Origin: Pelagibacteraceae bacterium AG-426-L23 | GTDB lineage: Bacteria; Pseudomonadota; Alphaproteobacteria; Pelagibacterales; Pelagibacteraceae | Length of the DNA stretch: 45,174 nt | Assembly (NCBI GenBank): GCA_003213115.1 | Contig: QCNU01000004.1 | Location: 1-45,174 of the forward strand | Direction of reading: 5' to 3' | Shown: piece by piece, positions 6,487 through 31,576 of the stretch | Layout: every line of letters begins with the position of its first letter | Position numbering within the stretch: position 1 is the first letter of the stretch | Notes under the pieces: generated by a model | What the model saw: the letters and a program-made list of their open reading frames with translations, nothing else | Told to the model about the DNA's origin: nothing | Databases searched by the model: none | Position numbers and translations under genes: made by a program

Positions 6487-8109
6487 TTAAACTGTAGGAG
6501 GTGTTGGATTAGGATCTTCTTCCCAAGAGATTTTCTTTCTTAGCTCTTTCAACATTGCTCTACCTTCTTCGTCATCTTTTTCAGCTATTTTTATTTTAGG
6601 TAGATCTTCATCCGGTAATTTTACGTATAAATTAAATGTTCTATATAACCCAGCTAACATTTTTTTGTATTCCTCTGGAAATTTTAAAATAGTATTTTCA
6701 TCAAAAGCGTATCCGTAATCTATGTCATCCGCTGCGTCTTTAGGCAATAATCCCTGGTCAACGCAAGTTTGATATAATGAGCATGAACGATAGGGAGTGA
6801 ACATAAATATATTGAATTGTATACCGTTGTGAATTCTGTAAAGATCTTTACAGAGATTAATTGTGTCAAAAACTAACTCTCTGTTTTCGTATGGAAATCC
6901 CATCATATTTGAAACTGTAGCTCCAATACCCTCTTCTTTTAATATTTTAATACTATTTGCTACTGACGCGTTTGTATAACCTCTCTTTAAATGTTTTTTT
7001 CTAAAATCTTCATTTCCATGTTCAAGAGATACGCCCAACCAATGCATACCTACTTCTTTTAACTTTTGCATTCTGTCTCCTTTGACAGTTTCAAATCTAG
7101 TTTGAAAATAAAAAGGAATTTTAATTTTACTATATTCCTCTATGAACATATCAAAATCTGCTTTGCTTAAAGCTAAAAAATATTCACTAGAAAAATGAAT
7201 ATAATTACAATCATGTTTATCCACTTGGTGGTATATTTGTTCTATAATTTTTTTCATATCCATTCTTCTGTAATATCTGCCTGCACCAGCATTGCTGTAA
7301 AAATCTCCAAGCAAAGAATTTTCACAATATGTACATTTGTGAACGCATCCTCTTGATGCTTCTATAACCAAAGTTTTGTAAATTTTTCCTTGCATAGGTT
7401 TAAGCAGAAGGCTCTTATCAAAAGCAGCAAAATCTGGGAAAGGGATTTTGTTTATATCTGGTAACATAGCGGGAGGATTTTTATGAATCTTTCCATTTTC
7501 ATCCCTCATCCAAAAGCCCCTTGTGTTTGTAGGATCTTTTTTTTCTCTTAATTTTTCACATAAGTCTGGAAAAGATATTTCCCCTTCTCCAACACAAACA
7601 TAACTAATTGATGGTTCTTTCAAAAATATTTCAGGAGTTAAAGTGGGAAATATTCCGCCAGCTACAACATGTACATCAGGAAAATTTTCTTTAACCATGT
7701 TTGTCATTTTTAAAGCCATTTTTTTTGTATTTTCTAAAATTGAAACACCTACAAGACTTGGCTTAAATTCATTCATCAAAATTTTCAAATCTGTTAACAT
7801 GTCATTTGGCCTATCTCTCCAAATATCATCTTTGTCCTCTATTGGCTTAGTCATTGTCTCTGCTCGCTCATCTTCTTGAGCAGAATATCTATCTACTTCT
7901 TTTTCTTTATAAAAAGCAGTATCAAATATTCTTACATCAAAACCTTTGTCTTTAAGAGCTGCACTTAAAGATGCCATGCCAACTGGTAAACCAGTAACTC
8001 TGTACATTGTTGGATAAATTAAAAGGACTCTAAAATTTCCATGAATAGTTGTAAGCGGAGACTTTTTCCCCGAAATAACTGAGTTTGTAATATTGCTTTG
8101 TACGCTCAT
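6487..8109 (-). CDS. B12-binding domain radical SAM protein
   Basis: A 540-residue protein with an N-terminal cobalamin-binding-like Rossmann domain (residues 27-190, RVLLIYPTMYRVTGLPVGMASLSAAL, then VVAGGIFPT and VCVGEGE) and a radical SAM domain whose cluster cysteines are C255, C259 and C262 in RGCVHKCTYC. Members of this class methylate unactivated carbons or rearrange substrates using SAM and often B12. The classic His of base-on B12 domains is not evident, as is common in this group. Its protein is less Lys/Asn/Ile-biased than the genes on either side, hinting at different history or expression. A B12 importer lies less than 2 kb upstream, which fits a cobalamin requirement. The reaction itself is unknown. 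Confidence 0.85.
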   Translation of the reverse strand: MSVQSNITNSVISGKKSPLTTIHGNFRVLLIYPTMYRVTGLPVGMASLSAALKDKGFDVRIFDTAFYKEKEVDRYSAQEDERAETMTKPIEDKDDIWRDRPNDMLTDLKILMNEFKPSLVGVSILENTKKMALKMTNMVKENFPDVHVVAGGIFPTLTPEIFLKEPSISYVCVGEGEISFPDLCEKLREKKDPTNTRGFWMRDENGKIHKNPPAMLPDINKIPFPDFAAFDKSLLLKPMQGKIYKTLVIEASRGCVHKCTYCENSLLGDFYSNAGAGRYYRRMDMKKIIEQIYHQVDKHDCNYIHFSSEYFLALSKADFDMFIEEYSKIKIPFYFQTRFETVKGDRMQKLKEVGMHWLGVSLEHGNEDFRKKHLKRGYTNASVANSIKILKEEGIGATVSNMMGFPYENRELVFDTINLCKDLYRIHNGIQFNIFMFTPYRSCSLYQTCVDQGLLPKDAADDIDYGYAFDENTILKFPEEYKKMLAGLYRTFNLYVKLPDEDLPKIKIAEKDDEEGRAMLKELRKKISWEEDPNPTPPTV

Positions 8110-8224
8110 ACTTTAGTTTTTAATATTCTTATAGGCTGGACTTCGACATTAATGTAATAGATCCTTACTGTCAAGTTCGCTATTTCCTGTCTTTTAATGC
8201 TTTTAATCAAGTGATTCATGTTTA

Positions 8225-9520
8225 CTAACTGCTTATAAGTTTTATTTTTAATAATAAATTGTATATTTCCAAGATCTTTTTAAATTTTAACTTAAGTATT
8301 TTTGACATTTCTATCAAATCGTTGCTTCCATCAGAGTATTGAAGAAAGTCTAAAAAATTTTTAGACTTTTTATAAGGTATAATATTCTTTAAGTTTGAAA
8401 GTGTCGGATAAAGTCCTCTTTTACTCATTAAAGGCTGACACGAAACTAAACTTTTCGGAATAATTTTTTTTTGAAGTATTTCAATTGCCTTACTTGATAC
8501 TTTAAATCCTCCTTTAAGACCTTTGACTGAGACTATCTTAAAATCATCTAAAGATGTGTGATATTCTGGATACTCTAAATATTTTGTTCTGAATATTGAT
8601 GCCATGGGCAAATTAATACCAGGTGAGCTGAACTGCCTTTCATCAGAGCCAGGATTTAGATATGAATATCTTTTAAATTTTATTTTAAGTAATTTATAGG
8701 CTTCTAAAAGAGATTTATCTACAAGTGTATTTCCATATTTAGATAATTTGCAGCCATGACTTCGATTGTCTCCAATGCAAGTTAAATGATAACCGCCAAT
8801 AACATCTTTTTTAAGCTTTTCTAAATTTTTATTAATATAAGCTATTGATCCAATGGTTTCAGGAATAAAGATAAATCTAATAGTTTTTTCTAATTTTTTA
8901 TATTTTTTAAAATATTTAATTAGACTCATAGTTACTATGGGTCCAGATAATTCATTATTAGCCATAGAGGGATGACAAATATTTGTAGAAATTAAAATTT
9001 CTTGTTTAGATTTTCCTTTTAAAACTAATTCACCGTAATGCAAATTTCCTCTACTATTTAAACTCGAGTCTATCAAAACTTTGAATTTATCTGAATTTTT
9101 ATAATTTTTGATTATATTTTTTTTTTGATTGTGAGTTATGCAGAACCCCCAAAATCTTTTATAATAAGAAGTCTTGTATGGTATTGCGTTTGGCTGTTTT
9201 GGCAAAGAATGTAAATTTTTTAAAAGAATTTTTTTTGAAATTTTTGTGTTTAATGGAATAGAATATCCAATAATATGTAGGTTGTTTTCCTTGAAGTCTA
9301 TTATTTTTTTTCCTGTTTTATCAATTACATATGCTTTTTTGATATTCCACTCAGGTGGTACTTTCCAATCATAAACTTTGGAACCAGATTTTATTTTTTT
9401 TATTTTTAAATTTGGAAATTCATTTTTAATTATATTTAATGTTTTTTTAGTCCCTGCACCAGTAAGGCTCCTGCAAATAGGAAAAAGTTTTTTACCCAAA
9501 TTAAAGTATTTAGTAATCAT
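8225..9520 (-). CDS. DUF4910 / aminopeptidase-like protein with C-terminal winged helix
   Basis: A protein of about 431 residues from the ATG at 9520; a second in-frame ATG at 9541 adds seven residues and cannot be excluded. It matches the DUF2172/DUF4910 architecture: N-terminal LFPICRSLTG, then VPPEWNIKKAYVID, NLHIIGYSIPLN and IPYKTSYYKRFWGFC, then an M28-peptidase-like core with the putative metal-site segment ICHPSMANNELSG, FIPETIGS and YHTSLDD, and a final segment of about 80 residues resembling a winged helix. Proteins like this recur in polysaccharide and nonribosomal clusters, but no activity is firmly assigned. It is separated by 115 non-coding bases from the downstream radical SAM gene. 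Confidence 0.82.
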   Translation of the reverse strand: MITKYFNLGKKLFPICRSLTGAGTKKTLNIIKNEFPNLKIKKIKSGSKVYDWKVPPEWNIKKAYVIDKTGKKIIDFKENNLHIIGYSIPLNTKISKKILLKNLHSLPKQPNAIPYKTSYYKRFWGFCITHNQKKNIIKNYKNSDKFKVLIDSSLNSRGNLHYGELVLKGKSKQEILISTNICHPSMANNELSGPIVTMSLIKYFKKYKKLEKTIRFIFIPETIGSIAYINKNLEKLKKDVIGGYHLTCIGDNRSHGCKLSKYGNTLVDKSLLEAYKLLKIKFKRYSYLNPGSDERQFSSPGINLPMASIFRTKYLEYPEYHTSLDDFKIVSVKGLKGGFKVSSKAIEILQKKIIPKSLVSCQPLMSKRGLYPTLSNLKNIIPYKKSKNFLDFLQYSDGSNDLIEMSKILKLKFKKILEIYNLLLKIKLISS

Positions 9521-9551
9521 TTTATAATACGATATACACATTTATTACGAT

Positions 9552-12488: not shown

Positions 12489-13601
12489 ATGACAATTAAA
12501 ATTAAGAAAAAAATTTCTATTATTTCACTATCAGCGGCAATAACATTAATACTTTTTTTTATAACAGATATTTTTTTTAGTAATTTTATTTCAAAAAATG
12601 ATTATTTTGCTGCTTGTTATCAAAGAGATGAAGATTTTTATTTTTTAAAAAGTAATTGTGAGGCCTATGAGAAATATGCTTCTAATAATTATAAAATTAT
12701 TACAAATAATTTTGGAATGAGAGTTTCAGAAAAAAATACAAATAATAAAAATAAAAAAAATTATTTTTTTGTTGGAGATTCTCAAGTTTATGGAATAGGT
12801 TTAGAATATAAAGATACTTTTGTAGGAATATTAGAAAAAAATTATGAAGAATATAATTTTTACAACTTAGCACTACCATCATATAGCCCTACAGTTTACT
12901 ATTATAAAATTAATAAATTCATAGAACTATTAAAACCTGAAAAAATTTTTATTTTAATTGATTTAACTGATATTTATGATGAAACATACAGATGGAAAAT
13001 ATCTAATACTAACGGCACACCTTACTTAATAGATAAAAAAAAGAAAAATAATGAAATTAGTCTAGATAAAACCTTTTCAAGCAAAATTGATAAATTTAAA
13101 GATAAAAATTTCAAAGGAACTAAAATTATTTCTTTTCATTTAAGAGAGTCTCTCAGAGCTCTCAAGAGAAAGATATTTGTTTCAAAAAAAGAAAAAATAA
13201 ATCTGCAAAAAAAAGTACAAAAGACCGAGGTGGGTAAAATAACTTATCAGAAATTACCCATAGATAGAGACATAAATCTAATGAAATTGAATCTTGAAAA
13301 TAAGATTATAGAAATTTCAAATTTAAAAGAAAAGCATAATTTTGATTTATATTTAATAACCCTGCCTTATCCTGAAACTTTAGAATATGGTCAAAATGAA
13401 TTCAATTGGGAAAATTTTATTTTTGATCTGTGTAAAAAAAGTTCATGCGAAAAACATATAAGTTTATTTCCAGTTTTTTCAAAAGCTAAAACTAAAGAAG
13501 ATAATTGGTTAAATAAATATTTTATTAATAACGACTTTCATCCAAATAAAAATGGTCATTATTTGATTTATAATGAAATAAAAAAAATTTTTAAAAATTA
13601 A
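12489..13601 (+). CDS. SGNH/GDSL hydrolase family protein
   Basis: A 370-residue protein with an N-terminal membrane anchor (residues 9-30, IISLSAAITLILFFITDIFF) and an SGNH-type fold. The nucleophile block is FFVGDSQVYGIG with Ser98. The Gly and Asn blocks may lie in ALPSYSPTVYYYKI. The catalytic DxxH-type block is NDFHPNKNGH with Asp349 and His351, although spaced DFH. Such proteins add or remove acyl groups, or are inactive relatives acting in polysaccharide O-acetylation. It follows the DUF5989 gene closely and is probably cotranscribed. Its last 11 bases overlap the convergent GT2 gene. Confidence 0.8.
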   Translation: MTIKIKKKISIISLSAAITLILFFITDIFFSNFISKNDYFAACYQRDEDFYFLKSNCEAYEKYASNNYKIITNNFGMRVSEKNTNNKNKKNYFFVGDSQVYGIGLEYKDTFVGILEKNYEEYNFYNLALPSYSPTVYYYKINKFIELLKPEKIFILIDLTDIYDETYRWKISNTNGTPYLIDKKKKNNEISLDKTFSSKIDKFKDKNFKGTKIISFHLRESLRALKRKIFVSKKEKINLQKKVQKTEVGKITYQKLPIDRDINLMKLNLENKIIEISNLKEKHNFDLYLITLPYPETLEYGQNEFNWENFIFDLCKKSSCEKHISLFPVFSKAKTKEDNWLNKYFINNDFHPNKNGHYLIYNEIKKIFKN

Positions 13602-14520
13602 TTCTTTCTTTTTCTACTACTAAAGGCAACTTTCTGGTATGTGTAAGAATCGTCATCACGTACTCCCCGATAAAACCCAGCAAAAATATTTGAATTGAAG
13701 CAATGGTAAATAAACCTATTACTAATGGAGCAATTCCAACTTCAAATGAATCCCAAAATAAAATTTTGTAAAAGAAAAAAACTGTAGCTATCATAATAGA
13801 AATAATACTCGTAAAAAAGCCTATAAACGTCATCAGCCTTAAAGGTAGTTTTGAATGTTTAACAATACCTAAAACACCTATATCGTATAAAGTATAAAAA
13901 TTATTTTTGGTTTCTCCTCCAGATCTTTTAGGTTGATGAAATTGAATTAATTTTATTTGAGAACTGATTTCTGAGAGCAAACCTCTAAAGTATGGGTACG
14001 GATCGTCAATTTTTCTAATTTGATCTACAATATTTTTTGTAAATAAACCAGATCCAGTAGTATTTCTCATTAAAGGAACATCTGAAATTTTGTTAATAAA
14101 TTTATAAAAAAAATTTTTAAATGAGTTAAGAAAAAAGTTTTCATCTGAGCTAATTCTTTGTGCTAATATTATTTGATTACCTTGTTCCCACTCTTTAATA
14201 TATTTTGGAATTAACTCTATAGGATCCTGAAAATCTGAATTCATCAAAATACATGCATCGCCAGAAGCTTGAAGCATTCCATATATTGGTGATCTTATAT
14301 GACCAAAGTTCCTTGAATTAATTATGACTTTAACTTTTTTATCCCTTGCAGCAATTTTTTTTAAAATTAAAATTGTCCCATCATTAGAATGGTTATCAAT
14401 AACTATATGTTCGTAATCGTAATCTAATTTGCTCATCTCTATTGAAATTTCTGAGCAAAGTTTTTCTATATTCTTTTCTTCATTAAAAGTTGGAGTTATA
14501 ATGCTTATTTTTTTACTCAT
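13591..14520 (-). CDS. Family 2 glycosyltransferase, GtrB/DPM1-like polyprenyl-phosphate type
   Basis: A 309-residue GT2 enzyme. The catalytic domain spans residues 1-225, with SIITPTFNEEKNIEKLCSEI at the start, the DNHSNDGT nucleotide-binding segment and the DxD-equivalent MNSDFQDPIELI near 93-105. Two transmembrane helices follow (about 228-252 and 264-288). This architecture is that of GtrB and dolichol-phosphate-mannose-synthase-like enzymes, which load one sugar on undecaprenyl phosphate at the cytoplasmic face. It is the last gene of a minus-strand operon that builds an unusual sugar, so I infer that it transfers this sugar to the lipid carrier. Its counterpart in the second module is at 28732-29664. 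Confidence 0.88.
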   Translation of the reverse strand: MSKKISIITPTFNEEKNIEKLCSEISIEMSKLDYDYEHIVIDNHSNDGTILILKKIAARDKKVKVIINSRNFGHIRSPIYGMLQASGDACILMNSDFQDPIELIPKYIKEWEQGNQIILAQRISSDENFFLNSFKNFFYKFINKISDVPLMRNTTGSGLFTKNIVDQIRKIDDPYPYFRGLLSEISSQIKLIQFHQPKRSGGETKNNFYTLYDIGVLGIVKHSKLPLRLMTFIGFFTSIISIMIATVFFFYKILFWDSFEVGIAPLVIGLFTIASIQIFLLGFIGEYVMTILTHTRKLPLVVEKERINF

Positions 14521-14524
14521 TTTC

Positions 14525-15373
14525 TTATTTTATAATTGAATATAAAGAAGTTCTCAAATTATAATTAATTTTAAGTTTTAGTTCTTTCTGGGCTTTTTTG
14601 ATCGATGGCACATATCTTTCAATTTTTTTACTGCTAATTTTTTTAATTTCTACAGGTTTATTAAAAACATTGCCAATTATTTTTGCTAAATTTTGAATAC
14701 TGATACTCTCATCCGAACCAACGTTATAAATAGGACATTTTACATTTGAATTAACAAGTATTGTTAAAAGCCACTTAACCATATCGTGACTATGCATATA
14801 ACTTCTATAAACTGTAAATTTTGATTTAACTAAAATTTTTTTCTTATAAAGACCTGCTTTTATAAAGTCAGAGATGGCATACTTTTTTTCAGTTAAAATT
14901 CTTTTTCCAATAAAAGTGAAAAGTCTTGCTATAGAAACTTTATACCCTTTTTTTCCAAGTTTTTTAAATTCTTTTTCTGTTAAAATTTTGCTTTTAGAAT
15001 ATTTTTTTTTACTTTTAATTTTTCCATATACTGCACCAGAGCTAGTAAATAGTACTTTAGTTTTTTTAGGTAATTTTTTAAACAAATATATAAAGTTTTT
15101 TAATGCATTTTTATCATTTTTATCATTTGAGGAATTTACTGCATAAATTATATAGTCGCTTTTGGGAAGTTTTTTTAACTTTTTTATATCTCTGGTAATA
15201 TATTTTAGATATAAACCTTTTTTGTTTTTTTCAATAATTCTTCTTCTGCTAATTAATGTAATCTTATTAATTTTCCATTTTAGAAGTTTTTTTTCTTTAG
15301 CATAATCCAATATAGATCTGCCTAAAAAACCGCTAGCACCAACTATAGTTAATGTTTTCAATTTATTTACCAA
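14525..15373 (-). CDS. NAD(P)-dependent sugar epimerase/reductase (extended SDR), module 1
   Basis: A 282-residue short-chain dehydrogenase of the extended, sugar-acting type. The cofactor motif GASGFLGRS is at residues 12-20, and the active site shows TSSGAVYG (110-117) and Tyr125-x3-Lys129. The start is TTG at 15373, overlapping the transketolase C-half by 11 bases; another TTG four codons later is equally possible, and there is no ATG nearby. Position next to the transketolase pair suggests it reduces the keto group that a two-carbon transfer leaves on the branched sugar, much as YerF does in yersiniose synthesis. That role is an inference; a plain epimerase is also possible. Confidence 0.8.
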   Translation of the reverse strand: MVNKLKTLTIVGASGFLGRSILDYAKEKKLLKWKINKITLISRRRIIEKNKKGLYLKYITRDIKKLKKLPKSDYIIYAVNSSNDKNDKNALKNFIYLFKKLPKKTKVLFTSSGAVYGKIKSKKKYSKSKILTEKEFKKLGKKGYKVSIARLFTFIGKRILTEKKYAISDFIKAGLYKKKILVKSKFTVYRSYMHSHDMVKWLLTILVNSNVKCPIYNVGSDESISIQNLAKIIGNVFNKPVEIKKISSKKIERYVPSIKKAQKELKLKINYNLRTSLYSIIK

Positions 15374-16256
15374 AAAACTTTAAATAATATTTGTCTAAAA
15401 GATATTGTTCTGATCCTACTTTGCTTATTATCTTTTTATCAATACTCTTCGAGATTATTTTGGTTTTTATTTTTTGATTATTAGTGGACTCTTTAATCCA
15501 AGATCCAAAGCCTCCATCTTCTAAATGATCTTCTAGGACCAAAACTTCGTCCCACTTTTTTAATTGGTTTAATTGTATGTTTTTAAATTTCATGCCCCAA
15601 ATAGGTAAAGAATATAAGGAAAATTTATTATACTTAGCTCTTATCAAAAGATCCTTTGCTAAACTGGCTATGTTGCCTGTAGTTAAAAATATTTTTTTAC
15701 TTTGAGTGTGCTTTGTTGAAATTGGCAGCCATTTGCCTGGTTTCACATTTGGAATTTTTTTGTGTAAAATTTTATTTTTAGTTTTAGCTAGTCTTAAATA
15801 AGAAGGTTGTGAATTTTTAACTATATACTTCATGCATGCTCTCACTTCCATATCGTCACCTGGAGATGCAATTATCATATTTGGGAAAAGTCTCATTAAA
15901 CCATAATCCTGTAATGAGTGATGTGTATAACCTAAACTACCATAACTCACCCCTGCTCCAACATTTACAATTGTTACCGGAAGATTGTGATAATCAACAT
16001 CATTTCTTATTTGTTCAGCACATCTAAATGTTGGAAAGTTACCAATCGAATAAACAAAAACGTGATTCCCTTCTAAAGCCATTCCAGAAGCTATTCCCAT
16101 CATATTTTGTTCAGCTACCCCGGCATTATAAAATTGATTTGGAAACATTTTTGCAAATTTTTCAACTACGCTATAACCAAGGTCATTTACTATTAAAACT
16201 ATCTTTTTGTTTTTTTTTGCTGCAAGAATTAATTCTTCAATAAAAATATTACGCAT
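15363..16256 (-). CDS. Transketolase-like ThDP enzyme, C-terminal subunit, module 1
   Basis: A 297-residue protein equivalent to the pyrimidine-binding and C-terminal domains of transketolase/DXS. The ThDP-activating glutamate is Glu49 in YNAGVAEQNMMGIASGMA. Further conserved parts are TYPE segments VYSIGNFPTFRCAEQIRNDV, YTHHSLQDYGLMRLFPNM and SYLRLAK. The C-terminal domain carries LVLEDHLEDGGFG. Together with the overlapping upstream N-half gene it forms a split enzyme. Because the genes around it make a nucleotide sugar, I infer a dedicated C2-transfer role in branched-sugar formation and not central carbon metabolism. The start overlaps the N-half stop by eight bases. Confidence 0.85.
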   Translation of the reverse strand: MRNIFIEELILAAKKNKKIVLIVNDLGYSVVEKFAKMFPNQFYNAGVAEQNMMGIASGMALEGNHVFVYSIGNFPTFRCAEQIRNDVDYHNLPVTIVNVGAGVSYGSLGYTHHSLQDYGLMRLFPNMIIASPGDDMEVRACMKYIVKNSQPSYLRLAKTKNKILHKKIPNVKPGKWLPISTKHTQSKKIFLTTGNIASLAKDLLIRAKYNKFSLYSLPIWGMKFKNIQLNQLKKWDEVLVLEDHLEDGGFGSWIKESTNNQKIKTKIISKSIDKKIISKVGSEQYLLDKYYLKFFGK

Positions 16257-17046
16257 TATTTACTTCTTTCAAGGCTTTTTTTAATTCTCTAGCATTAGGA
16301 GATTTATAATGCCATGCAATATTATTTTCCATAAAACTAACTCCTTTGCCTTTTATTGTATTAGCTATAATAACCCTGGGTTTATTTTTATTTTTTAATT
16401 TAAGAGCTTTTTTTAATTGAAGAATATTATGTCCATTTATATTCTTTACCTCGCAGCCAAAAGAGCTGATTTTTTTAATAAGAGGTTCAATTTTTATAGT
16501 TTCAGACACAAATGTTAAACTTTGAAGTTTATTATAATCAATGATGACACAAAGATTATTAAGTTTGTGGTGAGCAGCAAACATCAAGGCTTCCCAAGTT
16601 GTTCCCTCGTTTAATTCTCCATCACTTATTAAAACAAAAACTTTACGATTACTTTTATCTTTTTTAGCTGACAACGCCGAGCCAATCGCAACAGGTAAAC
16701 CATGTCCGAGTGATCCAGTAGAAAATTTTATACCAGGAACATGATGGCTAACGTGACTCATTAGTAATGTATTATTTTCCCCGTAAGATAGTAAGGTTTT
16801 TTTACTTAATATTCCTTTTTCAAATAAAATACAGTACAGCGCCAAACATGCATGTCCTTTACTTAATATAAAAGTATCTTTAAATTTTCTTTTAACTGAA
16901 GTTTTTCTCAAAACACTATTAAATAGCACAACTAGAATCTCAACAATTGATAAACATCCTCCTATATGAGAAGATTTAGCTTTGTGGCTTAATTGTAGAA
17001 TATGAGTTTTTATACTTTTAATTATTTTATTTTGTAATGTGTTCAT
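16249..17046 (-). CDS. Transketolase-like ThDP enzyme, N-terminal subunit, module 1
   Basis: A 265-residue protein equivalent to the ThDP diphosphate-binding domain of transketolase. Visible are SSHIGGCLS (His27), LSKGHACLALY (His65), STGSLGHGLPVA (His115) and the metal/ThDP motif ISDGELNEGTTWEA ending in VIIDYN (Asp142 to Asn172). The first Gly of the usual GDG triplet is Ser here. It starts within the last 20 bases of the RfbH-like gene and overlaps the C-half by eight bases, so the three are strictly coupled. It needs the C-half to make a complete active site at the subunit interface. Confidence 0.86.
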   Translation of the reverse strand: MNTLQNKIIKSIKTHILQLSHKAKSSHIGGCLSIVEILVVLFNSVLRKTSVKRKFKDTFILSKGHACLALYCILFEKGILSKKTLLSYGENNTLLMSHVSHHVPGIKFSTGSLGHGLPVAIGSALSAKKDKSNRKVFVLISDGELNEGTTWEALMFAAHHKLNNLCVIIDYNKLQSLTFVSETIKIEPLIKKISSFGCEVKNINGHNILQLKKALKLKNKNKPRVIIANTIKGKGVSFMENNIAWHYKSPNARELKKALKEVNNA

Positions 17047-18232
17047 TTAAAAATTTTAATATAATAGAATGGATGTAGGAAATATCTTTATTAGAAAGAC
17101 CTTGGTGACATCCAATTAATAAACCATTTTTCATTATGTAGTCAGAACTTTTAAAATTATTAAGTTTATTTTTACTTGAAATTAACTTCTGAAATGCTGG
17201 ATGTCTTAAAATATTTCCTGAAAATATTGGCCTTGTTTGTATATTATGTTTTTCTAAAAAGATTTGAAACTTTTTTCTAGTAAATTTATTATTGTTTTTT
17301 AGTATAACTGGGTATGCTAGGAAATTAGTTCTGACTTTATTCTCAATCCTTGGAATTACAAAGTATTTATTAAGTTTTTTAAAAAAACTACTATGATATT
17401 TAAAATTTATATTTCTTAATTTTGAAAAATATCTAAATTTTTTCAATTGTTCCAATCCAAAGGCTGCTCCTATCTCAGAAGGCTCAAAGTTGTAGCCAGC
17501 CTCTGAAAATACGAATTTTCTATCATAATTAAAGCCTTTTAATTTAATTCCTAATCTTTTATTGATATTTTCAGAGTCTTTGATCAAGGTAGACATTCTT
17601 CCCCAGCTTCTCAAAACTTTTGCCCTTAAATAATAATTTTTATCATTTGTTAGCATAATACCACCGTTTCCGGCGCAACTAATAACATGTGATCCATAAA
17701 AACTAGTTATAGATATATCGCTATAAATACCTGTTGATTTTTTATTTATCGTTGCTCCCAAAGTATCGGCTGAGTCCTCAATTATTTTAAGCTTATGTTT
17801 TAAAGCTAATTTTTTTATTTTTTTCCAATCAGGAATATTTCCAATCAAATTTGGAATTAATAAAGCTTTAGTTTTTTTAGAAATTTTACCTTCAATTTTA
17901 TCTACATCAATTTGAAGAGTTTCAATATCACAGTCAACAAAAATTGGGTTTAAGTTACTCAGCATTATAGAAGAAACAGCAGTTCCAAAATTAAGACATG
18001 GAGCTATAATTTCGCTTCCTTTAGGAAAGTTCATTACTTTCAATGCCAAAATTAATGCTGAAGAACCTGAATTTACCATCAATCCATATTTTTTTGAGAA
18101 TAATTTAGCAATTTTATTTTCAAAGGTTTCGACCGATTTGCCCATTTGAGTGGACTGATTAAGAGTTTTGATAACAGCATTTATTTCTTTTCTGCCATAA
18201 ACATTTTTACCGTAAGATATTTTTTTTTGCAT
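17027..18232 (-). CDS. RfbH-like sugar 3-dehydratase (DegT/AHBA family) lacking Fe-S cysteines
   Basis: A 401-residue PLP/PMP enzyme of the DegT/StrS fold, closest in its motifs to RfbH (CDP-6-deoxy-4-keto-glucose 3-dehydratase, E1). It has VNSGSSALILAL (53-64), IIEDSADTLGA (150-160) and SFYGSHVISCAGNGG, where His182 replaces the Schiff-base Lys of aminotransferases, the hallmark of the 3-dehydratases. The segment after WGR, which in RfbH carries the cysteines for a [2Fe-2S] cluster, reads MSTLIKDSENINKRLG with none. That resembles ColD, which works with PMP and glutamate without a cluster. It lies five bases after CDP-glucose 4,6-dehydratase, so its substrate is probably CDP-4-keto-6-deoxyglucose. 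Confidence 0.85.
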   Translation of the reverse strand: MQKKISYGKNVYGRKEINAVIKTLNQSTQMGKSVETFENKIAKLFSKKYGLMVNSGSSALILALKVMNFPKGSEIIAPCLNFGTAVSSIMLSNLNPIFVDCDIETLQIDVDKIEGKISKKTKALLIPNLIGNIPDWKKIKKLALKHKLKIIEDSADTLGATINKKSTGIYSDISITSFYGSHVISCAGNGGIMLTNDKNYYLRAKVLRSWGRMSTLIKDSENINKRLGIKLKGFNYDRKFVFSEAGYNFEPSEIGAAFGLEQLKKFRYFSKLRNINFKYHSSFFKKLNKYFVIPRIENKVRTNFLAYPVILKNNNKFTRKKFQIFLEKHNIQTRPIFSGNILRHPAFQKLISSKNKLNNFKSSDYIMKNGLLIGCHQGLSNKDISYIHSIILKFLNEHITK

Positions 18233-18236
18233 AATT

Positions 18237-19304
18237 CTAACTTAAATAATTTTGAATTTGCTCCTCACAAATTCTTTTATAACCTCTTAATTTTGCATGA
18301 TTATTCCATTCAATAATTTTGCTCAATGACTTATTTAAACTCCATTTTGGGTACCATTTTAATAGTTTTTTGGATTTATAATTACTTAATCTTAAATAAC
18401 TTGTTTCAGGTTTAAAATCTTTTAAATTATTTTTTGCTACTCCAATCTTAAGTCTCAATGATTTTGAAAAGTAATTCGCAATATATTTAACTGATTTACA
18501 ATTTGAAATATTTGGTCCAAAATTCCAGTTTTGAACTACTTTATTGAGTTTGTTTTTATACAGTTTTTCTGCCAAAAGCAAATAACCACTCAAAGGTTCT
18601 AAAACATGTTGCCATGGTCGAGTCGAATGAGGGTTTCTTAAAATGATCTTTTTATTTTTTTTGGCAAATCTATAAATATCAGGGATTAATCTGTCTTCAG
18701 AATAATCACCTCCACCTATAACATTCCCTGCTCGAACTGTAGCTAATCTCTGGTTAGAATCTTTTTTAAAAAATGAATTGTTGTATGAAGAAAATAAATG
18801 TTCTACACAAACCTTTGACGAGCTATAAGGATCGATACCACCCAATCTATCTGACTCTTTAAATATTTTATTTTTAGAGTTATCATAAACTTTGTCAGTA
18901 GTAATTATTATACTTGATCTGACTTTTTTAATTTTTCTTACACATTCTAAAACATTAAGGGATCCAACTACATTGGTATCAAATGTTTCTTTAGGTAAAA
19001 GATATGAATATCTAACAAGTGGTTGGGCTGCTAAATGAAAAACAATAGTCGCTTTTGAATTTTTTATTTCTTTATAAAGTTTTTTATAATCTCTTACATC
19101 AGCTATAATTGATTTTTTAACCACTTTGTTAACTTTTGCTAAGTTGAACAAGTTAGGTTTTGTTGTAGGACTTAAAGAATAACCTGTAACATGTGCGCCC
19201 AAATATTTTAAAAAAATACATAACCAACTACCTTTAAAACCTGTATGACCTGTTACAAAGACATTTTTATTTTTCCAGAAATGTCTGCCTATATTATAAT
19301 GCAT
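18237..19304 (-). CDS. rfbG: CDP-glucose 4,6-dehydratase
   Basis: A 355-residue extended SDR that should convert CDP-glucose to CDP-4-keto-6-deoxyglucose. Evidence is the cofactor loop VTGHTGFKGSWL (18-28), the family-specific HLAAQPLVRYSY, the catalytic TTDKVYDN with Thr136-Asp137-Lys138, and Tyr160-x3-Lys164, then RAGNVIGGGDYSEDRLIPD and RPWQHVLEPLSGYL, all characteristic of RfbG and not of dTDP- or GDP-sugar dehydratases. It is the first gene of the leftward module 1 operon. A glucose-1-phosphate cytidylyltransferase (RfbF) is not in the window and must be elsewhere. Confidence 0.93.
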   Translation of the reverse strand: MHYNIGRHFWKNKNVFVTGHTGFKGSWLCIFLKYLGAHVTGYSLSPTTKPNLFNLAKVNKVVKKSIIADVRDYKKLYKEIKNSKATIVFHLAAQPLVRYSYLLPKETFDTNVVGSLNVLECVRKIKKVRSSIIITTDKVYDNSKNKIFKESDRLGGIDPYSSSKVCVEHLFSSYNNSFFKKDSNQRLATVRAGNVIGGGDYSEDRLIPDIYRFAKKNKKIILRNPHSTRPWQHVLEPLSGYLLLAEKLYKNKLNKVVQNWNFGPNISNCKSVKYIANYFSKSLRLKIGVAKNNLKDFKPETSYLRLSNYKSKKLLKWYPKWSLNKSLSKIIEWNNHAKLRGYKRICEEQIQNYLS

Positions 19305-19370: not shown

Positions 19371-20957
19371 ATGAGTTTAATTAATAAAAAAATATTTCTT
19401 TTTTTAACTTTTATCTTTGCAATGTACTGTGCTGTCAAAATAGGTACAGCATGGGATGCTGGAACTCACCTCATAATGGGCAAAAATAGACTTAACTATT
19501 TACTCTCATTTGGGAGTATTGATAAAGAATTATGGTTTAGTAGATATTTTCCAGGTATCTCTTATACATTAACTGCTTTTTTTGTAACAATTTTTCCAAA
19601 ACAATACGAATTTCAGATTCTACACTTGTTAAATTTATTTATTTCAATAAGTGGTGTTTATGGATTGGCTAGAATATCTAAAACTATTTTTAATAAGAAA
19701 ATTGCCAATATAGTTTTTATTATTTTTTTGTTTTATCCAGCTTACTTTGGTCATATGGCGATAAATCCCAAAGATACAGTTATTACTGTTTCTTTTATAT
19801 GGATATCATATTTCATATTAAAGTATCTTCAAAAGCCCAATCTATATCAAAATAATAGAAATTTTATATTAATTATAAGTTTTTTAATTGCCCTTGGTTC
19901 AGGTGTTAATTTAGTTTTTGGTGGAGTTTTAATCCCATTAATAATTTTTGTACTATTTGAAATATTCCTCTACAAAAAATTCATTAATGCAAAATTTTCT
20001 TACAAAAAGTTTTTAATAGACATAAGTTTAATCTTACTCATATCATACTTAATTTTAGTTATATTTTGGCCGCAAGTTCACTCAAATATTTTTACATTAC
20101 CTTTTTTATTTTTATTAGATACTTTAAGTAATCCTCCTGTAGGAGCTCCTGCCACCATATTAAATGAAGAAATTTACCTATCTAATAACCCTTCTAAAAT
20201 TTATATTTTAACTAGTTTTATTTTACGTTCACCTGAGTACTTATTAATTTTATATCCTTTATCTTTTTTCTTTATATTTTTTAAAAATAATTTTTTTAAA
20301 AATAAAATTAAAAACTTTAATTATAAGATTTACGTTGTTATGAAAATATTAGTAATTTTTTTAATTTTGCTAAGTTTTTCTTCATTTCCCTTGTACGATG
20401 GAATGAGAAAGTTTATGTTTATAATTCCTTATTTTATAATTGTGCCTTCTTTAGGTATTTATTATATTTTATCAAACATACATCTTATAAGTAATAAAAT
20501 TTTATTATCTTTATTAAGTGTTTTAGGATTAATTTTTTTATTTAAATTTTTTTCATTAACGCCCTACCAATACGTATATTTAAATTACTTAAATGGTAAA
20601 ACTTCAAATAATCATACAAAATTTGAAAATGATTATTTAGCTACATCAATGAAAGAACTATTTGAAAAGTCTAAATTTCCAAAAAATGAAGTTATAAAAC
20701 TAAATTATTGTGGAGTGGGAGAAGGAAAAATTAAAAGGTATTTAAGGGAATTTAAATTCTCAAATGTAAAATTAACTAAAGACAAAAAAGATTATGATTA
20801 TGTTGTCATGACGAACAGAGTTAATTGGGACAGTATAGATTGGAAGGATCCTAATCCTTTAAAAAATGTTAAATCATGTTTTCAATCTTTTGAAGGTAAA
20901 TTAATAAGCTCAGTTTCAAGAAATGAGCTGAAATTGTCTATGATTAAAGAAAATTAA
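19371..20957 (+). CDS. Multi-spanning GT-C-like glycosyltransferase, module 1
   Basis: A 528-residue integral membrane protein with roughly 10-12 hydrophobic spans. Near the N-terminus it has TAWDAGTHLIMG and SRYFPGISY, later AINPKDTVI in a loop, and a C-terminal soluble stretch containing TPYQYVYLNYLNG. The loop acids and the YQYVYLN segment resemble PMT/GT39-type lipid-linked sugar transferases, whose active site faces the periplasm. It is transcribed divergently from the module 1 operon with 66 bases between. I infer that it moves the polyprenyl-linked sugar made by module 1 onto a polymer or protein. Exact family and substrate are uncertain. Confidence 0.7.
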   Translation: MSLINKKIFLFLTFIFAMYCAVKIGTAWDAGTHLIMGKNRLNYLLSFGSIDKELWFSRYFPGISYTLTAFFVTIFPKQYEFQILHLLNLFISISGVYGLARISKTIFNKKIANIVFIIFLFYPAYFGHMAINPKDTVITVSFIWISYFILKYLQKPNLYQNNRNFILIISFLIALGSGVNLVFGGVLIPLIIFVLFEIFLYKKFINAKFSYKKFLIDISLILLISYLILVIFWPQVHSNIFTLPFLFLLDTLSNPPVGAPATILNEEIYLSNNPSKIYILTSFILRSPEYLLILYPLSFFFIFFKNNFFKNKIKNFNYKIYVVMKILVIFLILLSFSSFPLYDGMRKFMFIIPYFIIVPSLGIYYILSNIHLISNKILLSLLSVLGLIFLFKFFSLTPYQYVYLNYLNGKTSNNHTKFENDYLATSMKELFEKSKFPKNEVIKLNYCGVGEGKIKRYLREFKFSNVKLTKDKKDYDYVVMTNRVNWDSIDWKDPNPLKNVKSCFQSFEGKLISSVSRNELKLSMIKEN

Positions 20958-21914: not shown

Positions 21915-23108
21915 CTAGCCTTTAACGCTGCCAGATGTAAGGCCACTTACCAAATATTTTTCAAAATACACAAAAATAAAAAGAACTGGTAGAGTAACTA
22001 TAACAGAACCAGCCATTAAATATTGGCGCGGAGTTTCCGCATCCCCACTTAAGTATTGAATAGCTCTCGATAAAGTAAAAGATTTAGGACTATCTAAAAA
22101 CATTAAAGAAAAAAGGAATTCATTCCATGCAATCATAAAAACATATAAGGCTACCGATGCAATCGCCGGTAAACTTAGTGGTATAATAATTTTTAAAATT
22201 ATACCAAACCAATTCTGACCATCCATGATACCTGCATCTTCAATCTCTTTAGGGATGCTTTTAAAATATCCTTGCAGCATATAAATAGCGACCGGCAATG
22301 TTGTGGCTGTATAAACAATCAATAGACCAAAAATTGAGTTCCTTAATCCCAATTGACTAAACACAGTATATAATGGAATCACTAAGACTATAGCTGGAAA
22401 CATATAAATGATTAAAATTGAAGTTGATAAAAAATTTTTACCAAAGAAATTTAATCTAGCTACTGCGTAAGCCGCAGGTATTGCAAATAATAGTGTTACA
22501 ATAACAGTTCCAACTGAAACTGCTGAGCTTATTAAGATATATCTTCCAAAATTATAAGTTTCAAAGATTACAAAATAAGACTTAAATAACTCTGTTAAGC
22601 TTTTTGTGAAATCTAGACTAAAGTCCAAAGGATTAACTAATAAAGCTATCTGCGTTTTAAAACTAGTAACCAGCATAATATAAAATGGAAATAAAATTAC
22701 GAATGCAAAGAAAACAATGCCAAACAAGGTGATAAAATCAAAAATAATCTTTTCAGATATGAAATCTTCTTTCAAAGAGTCCATACTATATTTTTTGAGT
22801 TTGTTCATAAAAAATAAAGTGATTAAGAAAACCCCAAGAATATACCAATATGGTGATGCCTCGTTTAAGTAAAAATATAAAATTGAAAATAAAAATGATA
22901 ATGAGAAAATCTTTATTAAGTGATTAATCTTTTTTCCAATTAAGACAAATGCTAACGACAAAAGGATACAAATAGAGAAAACTATTGTGATGTTTAAATT
23001 AGTAAAACTTAGACCCTGTAAGGTCGACATAATCTTCCAAATTGACAAGATACATGTCAGAAAAAAAGACGATATGATTAAAAATATTGAAAGAGATTTA
23101 AACTTCAT
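21915..23108 (-). CDS. Sugar ABC transporter permease (MalG/UgpE-like) with extra N-terminal spans
   Basis: Inner-membrane permease of a carbohydrate ABC importer (CUT1 type). From the ATG at 23108 it has 397 residues, about 120 more than usual. The additional N-terminal part carries about four hydrophobic spans (residues 5-100). The MalG-like core starts near FPFYIMLVTSFK, and the ATPase-contacting EAA loop is EIEDAGIMDGQNWFGIILKIIIPLSLPAI. The C-terminal LVSGLTSGSVKG is typical of MalG-like subunits. It overlaps the end of the first permease by 11 bases. The role of the added spans is unknown. Confidence 0.9.
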   Translation of the reverse strand: MKFKSLSIFLIISSFFLTCILSIWKIMSTLQGLSFTNLNITIVFSICILLSLAFVLIGKKINHLIKIFSLSFLFSILYFYLNEASPYWYILGVFLITLFFMNKLKKYSMDSLKEDFISEKIIFDFITLFGIVFFAFVILFPFYIMLVTSFKTQIALLVNPLDFSLDFTKSLTELFKSYFVIFETYNFGRYILISSAVSVGTVIVTLLFAIPAAYAVARLNFFGKNFLSTSILIIYMFPAIVLVIPLYTVFSQLGLRNSIFGLLIVYTATTLPVAIYMLQGYFKSIPKEIEDAGIMDGQNWFGIILKIIIPLSLPAIASVALYVFMIAWNEFLFSLMFLDSPKSFTLSRAIQYLSGDAETPRQYLMAGSVIVTLPVLFIFVYFEKYLVSGLTSGSVKG

Positions 23109-24358
23109 TACCCCTCTTTCCAATTAATCTAAAATAAATAACCATGAAAGTAAGAAGCAACATTACAATTACTATTGAAACAGCTGAGCCCATTCCGATA
23201 TCTGATACAGCAAACCCTTGTTGATAAACATTAATAGGGAGTGTTCTTGTTCCTGATGCGCCACCCGTTAATAAAAAGATATCTTCAAATTTATTAAAGT
23301 TCCAAATAAACCTAATCATAAATAAAATTGAAATGATTGCTGTAATTTGAGGCAGCGTTATATGGATAAATTTTTTGGATTGGGCTCGCTCCATCCACAT
23401 CAGCTGCTTCATACAAACTTTGTGGAATGGCTTGTAATCTTGCTAAAATAAAAAGAAAAGCGAGAGGAAAATAACGCCAAATTTCAAAAAATATAACAGT
23501 GGTTAAAGCTAGTCTTAATTTAAATTCAAAACCTAAAATACTCATTGTTATGTATTTTTGGCCCAGTAAATTTATTGGTTTCTCTATAATATTAAAATTA
23601 ACCAATAATGCATTTAAAGTTCCGCTATTTGGGTCTAACAATAAAGTCCAAGTATAAGCTAAAGCAACCACAGGACCTACATAAGGAAAAAGTAAAATAC
23701 CTCGCATGTAAGTTCGACCTTGAATATTTTGATTAACTAATTGTGCTGCTAAAATTCCAAAGATAATTGCACCTACAGTGCCAAAAAAAGTGAAGTAAAA
23801 TGTAGTTAAAAGCAATTCAACAAAATTATTTTCATAAAAGACTTTTTTAAAATTTTCTAAAGTAAAACTTGTAGACAATAGTGGATTATCTGCTTTTCCA
23901 CTTAAAATTGGTTTTTGAGATTTAATCATTTTTTTATCAATTGTTTCACCATTATTATTCTTTATGGTTATCTCAAAATTTTCTCTATATTTTGCCTCCC
24001 AATTTCCAAAATTACAAATCACCTTTTTAGATTGAAAATTACATCTTGGATCTAGATTTATTGGTGAAATATTTTTCGGAAATTTATCTTGGAACTGAAC
24101 ATTTCTTATTTCTTGAATTAACGAGCTATTTCTTAATTTATAAATAATTCTTAATTCTGATTGATTTTCTGAAATTGATTTAACAATTTTCTTTGCTCTC
24201 GGTTCAGGAATTCTAATATCTTTTAACTCAATGTCTTTAAAACTGATCCAAACATTTGCAAATATAGGAAATAAAACTATAGCAAAAACCAATAAGACTG
24301 CAGGTAAAACTAAGGTGTAAGCAGTTCTTTTTTCTAATTTTGATAATGTATCGCTCAT
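23098..24358 (-). CDS. Sugar ABC transporter permease (MalF/UgpA-like), frameshifted
   Basis: The partner permease of the sugar importer, interrupted by a frameshift. The first frame runs 24358-23312 and the second picks up within 23412-23098; removing one A from the A6 run at 23376-23371 joins them as EAADVDGASPIQKFIHITLP, a normal EAA loop, and gives 419 residues. The N-terminus has one span (14-36), then a periplasmic insert of about 140 residues before the second span. Residues 65-140 of this insert resemble a DUF11-type Ig-like domain with two cysteines (106, 115); MalF also has a large Ig-like P2 loop. The gene follows the binding-protein gene across a strong hairpin. Confidence 0.85.
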
Positions 24359-28731: not shown

Positions 28732-29664
28732 TTACTTGTAGTCTTTAATCTCCTTAATTACGTATTGATCTCTACCTTTTGTTTGCTCAAATATTCTTGC
28801 TAGATAAATTCCCATTATACCTAAGGTGAATAATAAAATTCCTGAAAAAAAAGATATAGCAATTATGATGCTAGTAGCTCCTGGTATGGCAAGATCATTA
28901 AATTTTAGAAAAAGAGCATAAATAATTAAAATAACGGATACAAATATTGAAAAAAAACCAAAAAATATTCCAATATATAGAGGTTTAAGAGAATAACTTG
29001 TAATTCCATTTATAAAATCTGTTATTGGACCAGCAGATAATAAAGGCATTTTAGACTCACCAGCACCTCTAGCTTGTCTTTCATAATTAAGATACGCCTG
29101 TTTAAAACCTACCCATACTGAAAGCCCTCTAACATAAGGTCTAAATTCTTTTTGATTTAAAATTTTCTCTAAAGCTTTTTTTGATATTAATTTATAATCA
29201 CCTGCTTCGATTGGTAAATTTATATCAGATAAAATATTTATTAAATAATATGCTATTTTAGTTACAAACATTCTAAATTTTCCTTCACCTTTTCTCTTAG
29301 TTCTTATTGTGTGAACTACATCAAATCCCTCCTCATATTTTTTTAACATGTCAGGAATTAACTCTGGTGGATCTTGAAGATCAGTATGTAAATAAACCAC
29401 CGCTTCACCTGTGGCATGTCTAAATCCCGCTAACACACAAGGATCTACACCAAAGTTTCGGCTCATGTTAATAATTTTAATTGGATAATCTTTTTGTAAT
29501 TTAAGTAAAATGTCTTCTGATTTATCTGTCGAGTCATCGTTTACAAAAATTAATTCATACTTCCAATCAGATGAATTTTTTAAACTACCATGCACTCTCT
29601 CAACTAATTTTTGGATATTGCCTTCTTCATTTCTAAAAGAAAAAACTACAGATAAAAGTTTCAT
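28732..29664 (-). CDS. Family 2 glycosyltransferase, GtrB/DPM1-like, module 2
   Basis: A 310-residue GT2 with the same architecture as the 13591-14520 protein: catalytic domain with SVVFSFRNEEGNIQKLVERV, FVNDDSTDKSEDIL and the metal-site segment VYLHTDLQDPPELIPDM, then two C-terminal transmembrane helices (about 230-255 and 265-290). VRGLSVWVGFKQ and RGAGESKMPL are typical of GtrB-like undecaprenyl-phosphate sugar transferases. It closes the minus-strand module 2 operon and presumably loads the module 2 sugar onto the carrier lipid. Convergent with the phosphorylase gene, 32 bases apart. Confidence 0.9.
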   Translation of the reverse strand: MKLLSVVFSFRNEEGNIQKLVERVHGSLKNSSDWKYELIFVNDDSTDKSEDILLKLQKDYPIKIINMSRNFGVDPCVLAGFRHATGEAVVYLHTDLQDPPELIPDMLKKYEEGFDVVHTIRTKRKGEGKFRMFVTKIAYYLINILSDINLPIEAGDYKLISKKALEKILNQKEFRPYVRGLSVWVGFKQAYLNYERQARGAGESKMPLLSAGPITDFINGITSYSLKPLYIGIFFGFFSIFVSVILIIYALFLKFNDLAIPGATSIIIAISFFSGILLFTLGIMGIYLARIFEQTKGRDQYVIKEIKDYK

Positions 29665-29700
29665 TTTTTTGTTATATAGTTTGTTTAAATAGTACTCTAA

Positions 29701-30738: not shown

Positions 30739-31576
30739 GTATCTTTTTTAATATACTTTCATTGCAAAATTTTAGATATTTATCTTGAACTATTTTATCT
30801 CCGTATTTATGAATTATTGTTTCATTATATCCGATTGACAAAATTTTAGTGTCTAAGAAATTTTTTTTTCTTATTTTTCTCTCTAATATGCTTCCAAAAT
30901 ATGGTTCAATAATTATTACTTTTTTATATTTTTTAATGAAATCAAAATTCATATTTTTTGATATGCTATTAATGTAGTAAACATCCATTTTTTGGTTAAA
31001 AAATATTTCACTATTTGCCGCGTTTCCTACAATAATAATTATTTTTTTATTTTTATTTCTTTTAATAAAACTATTGTTTTTAATTGGTTTTTTTCCAACA
31101 TTTCCCGACATTCTAAAATAGTTTACTGAATTATTTTTATAATTTTTTTTAAAAAGATAATCAAATTCCTGTGGGTTTGAAGGTAAAAATAAATTTATAT
31201 CATCATAATTAGATAAAACACTTATATCTTCAAAACAATGATGAGTGGTACCTAATTTTGCATAGTCATTTGAGCCTCCGACTGAAACAATATTACAAGA
31301 AAGTTTGTTGTAAACGAAATCAACTTTGATTTGTTCTAATGCTCTTAAAACTAAAAAAGGTGTTATAGTATGAATTACTGGTATGTAACCAGCTTTTGAC
31401 AATCCTGCTCCAAATCCTAACATGGTTTGTTCCATTGTGCTCATATTTAAAATTCTATTAGCAAACTTTTTAAAAATGTTTCTAAAAGAGAAAATACCTA
31501 TATCTCCAAGTAAACAAAAAATTTTTTTATCTTTTGTCATTAGTTGTTCAATTGTTTTAGGAAAAATACGTCTCAT
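30725..31576 (-). CDS. Transketolase-like ThDP enzyme, C-terminal subunit, module 2
   Basis: A 283-residue counterpart of the 15363-16256 protein. The ThDP glutamate is Glu49 in LNMSTMEQTMLGFGAGLS; further matches are PVIHTITPFLVLRALEQIKVDF, TTHHCFEDISVLSNY and NYFRMSGNVG. The first half aligns well with module 1, the last 100 residues much less. Its ATG overlaps the stop of the N-half gene (ATGA), a coupled pair. As in module 1 the substrate is inferred to be a keto nucleotide sugar. Confidence 0.82.
   Translation of the reverse strand: MRRIFPKTIEQLMTKDKKIFCLLGDIGIFSFRNIFKKFANRILNMSTMEQTMLGFGAGLSKAGYIPVIHTITPFLVLRALEQIKVDFVYNKLSCNIVSVGGSNDYAKLGTTHHCFEDISVLSNYDDINLFLPSNPQEFDYLFKKNYKNNSVNYFRMSGNVGKKPIKNNSFIKRNKNKKIIIIVGNAANSEIFFNQKMDVYYINSISKNMNFDFIKKYKKVIIIEPYFGSILERKIRKKNFLDTKILSIGYNETIIHKYGDKIVQDKYLKFCNESILKKIHEFK

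Follow-up and report, generated by a model that had tools for sequence, protein, structure and literature searches.

Among thiamine diphosphate (ThDP)-dependent enzymes that form tertiary alcohols, one review distinguishes YerE-like enzymes and two-subunit enzymes resembling pyruvate dehydrogenase (PDH), with transketolases (TKs) as a proposed further kind (PMC12247030). In the same account, YerE carries out the reaction that matches the one considered here, with pyruvate, on CDP-3,6-dideoxy-4-keto-glucose (PMC12247030). Split TKs, none of them characterised in vitro according to that review, are proposed to branch the sugars of miharamycin and amipurimycin, and TK-catalysed carboligation between a ketol and a ketone is presented as proposed and not as experimentally reported (PMC12247030). 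The 13 putative split-gene TKs counted are all from Streptomycetes (Krug, 2024, as told in PMC12247030). Here, we describe a gene cassette of Pelagibacteraceae bacterium AG-426-L23, found in a stretch of 45,174 nucleotides (contig QCNU01000004.1, positions 1 to 45,174), which is referred to as the window. It encodes a CDP-glucose 4,6-dehydratase relative (CGD), an RfbH-like 3-dehydratase (RFBH), the N- and C-terminal halves of a TK (TKn and TKc) and an extended short-chain dehydrogenase/reductase (SDR), and it is fairly likely that these five genes make a C4-branched deoxysugar as a CDP derivative via ketol transfer by the TK.

Like the yersiniose A pathway, the cassette clusters a CDP-glucose 4,6-dehydratase, a 3-dehydratase of the RfbH family, a ThDP carboligase and an SDR. 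It is unlike that pathway in having a split TK for YerE, which is of the decarboxylase family, and a 3-dehydratase without iron–sulfur (Fe-S) cysteines. No YerE-type gene of the decarboxylase superfamily is present among the open reading frames (ORFs) of positions 13591-19304, the rest of the genome not having been searched for one. The extended SDR is likened to YerF by its proposed role. For the split-gene TKs of miharamycin and amipurimycin, too, attachment of a hydroxyacetyl group to a keto sugar has been proposed, but these are from Streptomyces only, whereas the kind in the window occurs in CDP-sugar loci of at least five phyla. The branching enzymes of aldgamycin and kibdelomycin (KbDH), which resemble alpha-ketoacid dehydrogenases, likewise use ThDP, consist of two subunits and attach two-carbon branches to keto sugars, but their donor is pyruvate and they belong to another ThDP superfamily (PMC12247030), while the halves in the window are of the TK family. 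The idea in itself is not new, because sugar-branching split TKs have already been proposed for miharamycin and amipurimycin (PMC12247030). What is new here is a sugar nucleotide and a range of hosts other than those of the Streptomyces proposals.

The gene content and order, the recurrence of the linkage and the residue changes described below are observations, and the reactions that we infer from them would run as follows. CDP-glucose would be converted to CDP-4-keto-6-deoxyglucose by the 4,6-dehydratase, and the Fe-S-less RfbH relative would strip the C3 hydroxyl by pyridoxamine phosphate (PMP) chemistry, with glutamate as the amine source, leaving the C4 ketone. TKn and TKc with ThDP would add to this ketone a two-carbon ketol from a ketose phosphate or hydroxypyruvate, so that C4 becomes a tertiary alcohol bearing a hydroxyacetyl branch. 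Reduction of the branch ketone by the SDR would then give CDP-3,6-dideoxy-4-C-(1,2-dihydroxyethyl)hexose, and a family 2 glycosyltransferase (GT2) would pass the branched sugar to undecaprenyl phosphate for a surface glycan.

Recurrence of the cassette

The genes are transcribed from the minus strand in the order CGD, RFBH, TKn, TKc, SDR and then GT2, so that the run reaches beyond positions 14525-19304 as far as the GT2 gene. According to the ORF coordinates, CGD and RFBH are separated by a gap of 4 bases, RFBH and TKn overlap by 20 bases, TKn and TKc by 8, and TKc and SDR by 11, and a gap of 4 bases precedes GT2; such overlaps and 4-base gaps would resemble a translationally coupled operon. 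The dehydratase, the RfbH-like 3-dehydratase, the split TK and the SDR were all called correctly by the first-pass annotation, as judged from family matches (Table 1). A chance array is ruled out because the same gene order, at 44-76% identity, recurs in another genus of the same family (L169), where an RfbF-like gene accompanies CGD (48%), RFBH (76%), TKn (64%), TKc (59%), SDR (44%) and GT2 (64%).

Neighbourhoods were mapped for 20 close TKn relatives in the order and for L089 (21 loci). L170 has the run CGD-RFBH-TKn-TKc, and L171 has RFBH-TKn-TKc-SDR (its SDR 38% identical to that of the window) on a contig that stops at the RFBH gene. RFBH, a different SDR, both TK halves and GT2 are found in L172, with the dehydratase and RfbF farther away, and L173 has RfbF, both TK halves and a convergent dehydratase. 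A scan of 297 genomes of the order gave 71 TKn matches in 61 genomes; CDP-glucose dehydratases are present in 97 of the 297, 96 of them above the family cut-off. When distances are calculated manually from the positions of the matches, a CGD lies not more than 8 kb from TKn in 5 of the 6 matches with at least 56% identity, the sixth being L171 at its contig end, and within 10 kb in 1 of the remaining 65 (G678).

Among 385 genomes of the class, RfbH relatives occur in 44 and TKn relatives in 73, with both in 19. The two lie within 5 kb of each other in 5 of those 19, the window genome among them; the distances were measured for selected pairs, and in the other ten genomes the genes are on different contigs or far apart by their listed places. 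One of the five close pairs (G345, L201) shows no CGD nearby. Outside the order, further CGD-linked TK loci are L199, L200, L202 and L207. According to its public annotation, a plasmid of Methylovirgula sp. HY1 carries a single run of rfbF, rfbG, an oxidoreductase gene, rfbH, TKn and TKc, which is faced by GT2 and GtrA.

For a wider view, TK relatives were collected by a scan of GTDB species, and the best 80 of 593 confirmed relatives were used, 10 of these loci giving no TKn frame in ORF calling. In 7 of the best 80 (L089, L090, L091, L095, L097, L101 and L103), a CGD relative lies no more than 8 genes from the TK, as called by BLAST to the window protein (43-48% identity; 32% in L097) and not by profile. 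Most of these loci are metagenome-assembled, and L103 is from the isolate Paenibacillus chibensis NBRC 15958. The hosts belong to Bacteroidota, Actinomycetota, Bacillota, Omnitrophota and other Alphaproteobacteria, a recurrence that supports the earlier placing of the split TK in a CDP-4-keto-6-deoxyhexose route. TK relatives are also present in 27 records of a phage sequence collection, mostly unannotated, with up to about 40% identity among the matches listed.

In all, 101 TKc were scored, 19 of them with a CGD nearby; the sample was collected by similarity and partly by hand (L199-L202, with RfbH nearby), and the counts are descriptions, not rates. RfbF accompanies 16 of the 19 CGD-linked TKs, and RfbH or a C-methyltransferase 15 of them (11 and 5, one locus having both). 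A GT2 relative lies within 8 genes in 13 of these loci, and an SDR1/SDR3-like SDR in 11. In L089, L090 and L095, a C-methyltransferase-like protein takes the place of RfbH; its domains PF08421, PF13489 and PF08484 (read from L089, the other two proteins being 41% identical) are those typical of NDP-4-keto-sugar C-methyltransferases. Whether C3 is dehydrated or methylated, the enzyme works beside the C4 ketone and leaves that ketone in place. This exchange, through which the 4-keto source, the SDR and the TK stay constant, makes the strongest indirect case for action of the TK on the C4 ketone. The term 3,6-dideoxy belongs to this cassette and not to every TK cassette, since some cassettes swap in a C-methyltransferase.

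The transketolase pocket

The solved chain nearest to TKn is 6yak, the N-terminal component of the split TK of Carboxydothermus hydrogenoformans (E 6e-62), and that nearest to TKc is 6yaj, followed by chains of 1-deoxy-D-xylulose-5-phosphate synthase (DXS). The AlphaFold model of TKc (pLDDT 81.9) likewise has 6yaj as its top PDB fold match (TM 0.79 by query length). The C. hydrogenoformans TK is thus the best solved relative of both halves, but it keeps the metabolic pocket H...GEDG...SH, in place of which the window pair has G...GSLG...TH.

Residues are numbered as in E. coli TktA. The ThDP-binding and pyrimidine domains and the family residues Glu411, His26, His66, His100, His473, Asp155 and Asn185 are all present in the window pair. 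TKn keeps H26, H66, H100, D155, N185 and H261; in TKc, E411, H473 and R358 are kept, and H461, D469 and R520 are changed to G, L and K, respectively. The position of S385 could not be aligned with certainty. In metabolic TK, the phosphate is held by H461, R520, R358 and S385 and a substrate hydroxyl by D469, and H100 of TktA contacts the ketol hydroxyl. A pocket with all phosphosugar-binding residues kept, which the first-pass annotation had named as evidence against its own proposal, is accordingly not seen at the sequence level, although R358 is retained. Placement of the pair in DXS is contradicted by the scores of TKn (PF00456 107.6 bits, against 35.3 bits for PF13292, DXP_synthase_N) and by H100, which is absent from DXS of related genomes (5/5); these have Asp at the 469 site. 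To judge from these residues, the pocket matches neither metabolic TK nor DXS. Because the window TK and most of its kin retain H100, which DXS lacks, transfer of a ketol (glycolaldehyde), as first predicted, is favoured over transfer of an acetyl group.

H26, H66, D155, N185, H261, D381, E411, F437 and H473 are kept in 19/19 CGD-linked TKs, R358 in 18/19 (Lys in L101) and H100 in 17/19 including the window (Leu in L200 and L202). In all 19, H461 is replaced by Gly and D469 by Leu, Ala or Gln; position 520 is Lys in 16 of them, whereas L097, L101 and L203 retain the Arg. Both H461 and D469 are retained in 29 of the 101 TKc, with a CGD near none of them, and one of the two residues is retained in 2, also with no CGD. 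Both are lost in the other 70, 19 of which have a CGD nearby (Fisher p 0.0006 for loss of both versus the rest, kinship ignored). In a TK tree of 83 rows made by a quick method, the window falls in a set of seven rows (SH-aLRT 100), six with a CGD and the seventh being L171. This set sits in a group of 44 rows (SH-aLRT 99), none of which keeps both H461 and D469.

The source genome (987 kb, 10 contigs) also encodes a full-length TK (a frame of 668 aa, PF00456 443.7 bits) and a further split pair, and the window pair is therefore not the sole TK of the cell. The third split pair, at a separate locus (L084 8550-10372; G000 C1, about 476.6 kb), has Ala at the 461 site, Leu at 469 and Ser at 520. 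A second TK module lies within the window at 28732-32326 on the minus strand (TKc 30725-31576, SDR 29701-30738, GT2 28732-29664), with no dehydratase or RfbH adjoining it. Its TKn is a pseudogene or a sequence error, because it is broken over two frames, with matches at 31582-32124 and 32102-32326.

The 3-dehydratase and the remaining genes

The best solved relatives of RFBH are E1 (3bcx, 3bb8) and ColD (3b8x, 2gms, 3gr9), E1 being slightly nearer (192.7 versus 173.6 bits). A His replaces the Lys that binds pyridoxal phosphate (PLP), both in the window protein and in 15 relatives that are 39-77% identical to it. In the alignment this His of the window protein coincides with the active-site His mutated in 3bb8 and in ColD mutants (His220 of E1, His188 of ColD). 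No Cys is found in the region of the E1 cluster in the window protein or in these 15 relatives; RfbH of L091, L103 and Methylovirgula do carry the cluster cysteines. E1 and SpnQ hold a [2Fe-2S] cluster, E1 working with the reductase E3, and ColD has no cluster and regenerates PMP with glutamate (PMC8987622). The retained dehydratase His and the absence of cluster Cys therefore point to ColD-type chemistry: most likely, the window enzyme acts on a CDP sugar in the manner of ColD, without an E3 reductase. It shares with ColD, a GDP-4-keto-6-deoxymannose 3-dehydratase, the His for Lys and the lack of cluster cysteines, but it is slightly nearer to E1 in sequence and is linked to a CDP-glucose and not a GDP-mannose dehydratase. 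On its sequence it is assigned to neither, the cysteines of E1 being missing. The RfbH/E1 3-dehydratase of the first-pass annotation is thus correct as to the RfbH family and the dehydratase His, and incorrect as to the E1 type.

RFBH was considered as a marker of the cassette and rejected, relatives of 39-55% identity (11 loci) having no split TK nearby; it is the TK that marks the cassette. Among candidates met in these loci, a weak TKn match in L070 is PDH E1-alpha, a 580-aa protein of L069 taken up as a possible YerE is an ABC exporter, and a 577-aa protein of L071 taken up likewise has no NCBIfam match at 1e-10. Two of the loci have other features of their own. In L070 8284-15327, several SDRs and the PDH E1-alpha-like protein accompany an Fe-S-less RfbH relative (53%), possibly for PDH-like sugar branching. 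In L074 2283-5699, an Fe-S-less RfbH relative and a CGD relative adjoin a NeuB/PseI-like synthase, which is an unusual combination.

The translation of CGD, examined by eye, contains TTDK and YSSSK, in agreement with [ST]DK...Yx3K, the catalytic pattern of this dehydratase class according to PMC8987622, and its family marks it as a predicted producer of CDP-4-keto-6-deoxyglucose. Tyr and Lys of the SDR motif YxxxK are invariant in the alignment of cassette SDRs, and fold matches of the SDR model, which is of low confidence (pLDDT 66.1), are nucleotide-sugar SDRs with no finer call. By analogy with YerF, this SDR would reduce the branch ketone. The solved chains nearest to GT2 are 5ekp (sll0501) and undecaprenyl-phosphate transferases, and GT2 likely loads the finished sugar onto the lipid carrier. 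The 528-aa membrane protein that diverges from the cassette is 22% identical over 494 columns (E 3e-13) to a membrane protein adjoining the TK cassette of L090; tentatively, it could be a GT-C transferase using the lipid-linked sugar. A comparison of the membrane protein at 19371 with that at 32915 found no GT-C homology.

Table 1. Genes of the cassette and its surroundings in the window (aa, amino acids; TM, transmembrane)
Feature	Coordinates	Strand	Family match
CDP-glucose 4,6-dehydratase, RfbG type (CGD)	18237..19304	-	TIGR02622 432.9 bits (cut-off 278.45)
PMP/PLP-dependent 3-dehydratase, RfbH-like, DegT family, Fe-S-less (RFBH)	17027..18232	-	NF011936 284.3 bits (under cut-off 423)
TK N-terminal half, ThDP-binding, subunit 1 of proposed sugar-branching ketolase (TKn)	16249..17046	-	PF00456 107.6 bits
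TK C-terminal half, subunit 2 of the same proposed ketolase (TKc)	15363..16256	-	PF02779 103.4 bits
Extended SDR, proposed branch-ketone reductase (YerF role)	14525..15373	-	PF01370 56.9 bits
GT2 glycosyltransferase, polyprenyl-phosphate (PgfS/GtrB/ArnC) kind	13591..14520	-	PF00535
528-aa membrane protein, divergent from cassette	19371..20957	+	No Pfam match; 8 TM-like segments

Elsewhere in the window, two overlapping frames at 23312-24358 and 23098-23412 on the minus strand (23098-24358 together) were named by eye as a putative ABC permease, perhaps with a frameshift. At 6487-9541, also on the minus strand, a B12-binding radical SAM protein adjoins a DUF4910/DUF2172 protein near glycan genes.

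Alternative readings and the wider transketolase group

Several findings weigh against ketol transfer to a CDP-linked C4 ketone. The literature searched yielded neither a published assay for a member of this TK group nor a report linking a split TK with CDP-glucose sugars, most subscription papers lying outside the search. Neither RfbH nor a C-methyltransferase is within 8 genes in 4 of the 19 CGD-linked loci (L101, L173, L203 and L209). The SDRs of different cassettes are poorly conserved (17-23% identity to that of the window), L172 has another SDR type, and the SDR1/SDR3-like gene is present in just the 11 loci mentioned above. For RfbF, the window genome offers just an RfbF-like gene that scores under the cut-off and lies elsewhere. 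The RFBH clade stands without a TK in 11/11 more distant loci read (some of which end at contig edges), so that this type of 3-dehydratase is not specific to the cassette. On the TK tree, the CGD label (12 rows) takes 6 changes and is clustered without forming one clade; shuffled labels take 11.4 changes on average, and 0 of 500 shuffles are as low as 6. To these are added the scores of TKc, the Leu of two TKs at the H100 site and the residue losses shared with TKs that have no CGD nearby, each of which bears on another reading.

TKc scores higher with the NCBIfam model for dxs than with that for TK (97.6 versus 91.7 bits), and DXS chains follow 6yaj among its PDB matches, so that acetyl transfer from pyruvate keeps some probability. 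The pair might then be DXS-like and decarboxylate pyruvate, adding acetyl to C4 to form the 1-hydroxyethyl branch of the yersiniose type in the same pathway. Pyruvate is the donor for YerE and for the branching enzymes resembling alpha-ketoacid dehydrogenases (PMC12247030), and L200 and L202, having lost H100, might transfer something else. We consider this reading unlikely, as TKn is clearly a TK by its scores, H100 is kept in the window and in most CGD-linked TKs, and the Asp of DXS at the 469 site is lost. The loss of H461 and D469 is shared by 51 TKs with no CGD nearby and thus marks a wider group, not this substrate. Accordingly, the TK product may be another component of the same glycan, a ketose in free or phosphorylated form, and the place of the TK beside the CDP genes may reflect only the clustering of surface-sugar genes; several of the CGD-less TKs do have a PglF-type dehydratase, an aldo-keto reductase or a DegT aminotransferase as a neighbour. 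The chance of this is small, given the immediate adjacency with overlapping frames, the similar neighbours in five phyla and the CGD linkage of 5/6 versus 1/65 in the order; moreover, in the 4 PglF-type loci read, the enzyme next to the TK is once more a producer of a 4-keto sugar. Split TKs do exist, with 6yak/6yaj as the solved example, and the pair could in principle support pentose phosphate metabolism as a metabolic TK. With a full-length TK in the genome, H461, D469 and R520 altered, and a well-supported tree group in which no row keeps both H461 and D469, this is very improbable. Hardly credible is a route to a 4-amino sugar in which the RfbH-like protein is an aminotransferase and the TK acts elsewhere: the protein is of the DegT family (PF01041 246.4 bits), but in it and its 15 relatives the PLP Lys is replaced by His as in E1 and ColD, where this His has a dehydratase role (PMC8987622).

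Ketol transfer to the C4 ketone might extend beyond CDP sugars. Among the CGD-less TKs with the same losses, those of L085, L100, L174 and L175 lie beside PglF-type dehydratases (PF02719), those of L174 and L096 beside aldo-keto reductases, and that of L175 beside a DegT aminotransferase and a bacterial sugar transferase; all five loci are possible UDP-sugar branching routes. We see about an even chance that the broad group of split TKs without H461 and D469, often with YGxLGx[ST]HH, moved from the pentose phosphate pathway to carboligation on C4 ketones of NDP-sugars in several routes. The substrates may include CDP-4-keto-6-deoxyglucose after 3-deoxygenation, as in the window, or after C3-methylation, as in the L089 type. 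Possibly, UDP-4-keto-6-deoxy-GlcNAc is used beside the PglF types, with the branch ketone reduced by the aldo-keto reductase or aminated by the DegT protein. A TK on a Streptomyces plasmid (L195, an unannotated record) also shows YGQLGPTHH.

The split TKs beside FGGY kinases (L217-L219) resemble the window pair in having lost the residues at both 461 and 469. As a lead only, they may be the apulose-4-phosphate TKs of the apiose pathway, which would be a precedent for a ketone acceptor; no such label is among the NCBIfam matches. An aptA (apulose-4-phosphate TK) label on an Apilactobacillus plasmid was set aside as proof of ketone chemistry, since there are no sugar catabolic neighbours and TKc keeps H...GRDG...SH. 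The aptA/aptB label of this record (L216 3977-5705) itself looks doubtful, the pocket being metabolic-like.

If a TK joined a ketol to a ketone, the products would be chiral tertiary alcohols with a ready hydroxyl handle. The loci described here offer candidate enzymes, some of them in named isolates (Methylovirgula sp. HY1 and Paenibacillus chibensis NBRC 15958), and the predicted TK substrate is a defined one that could be made from CDP-glucose by the first two enzymes of the cassette. If the proposal is true, the split TKs would join YerE and the PDH-like enzymes as a third ThDP family, widely used to branch bacterial surface sugars. If the CGD-less TKs use UDP-4-keto-6-deoxy-GlcNAc, the group would be a general tool for branching NDP-4-keto sugars. 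The cassette predicts that small-genome Alphaproteobacteria, and bacteria of other phyla, carry branched sugars in their surface glycans.

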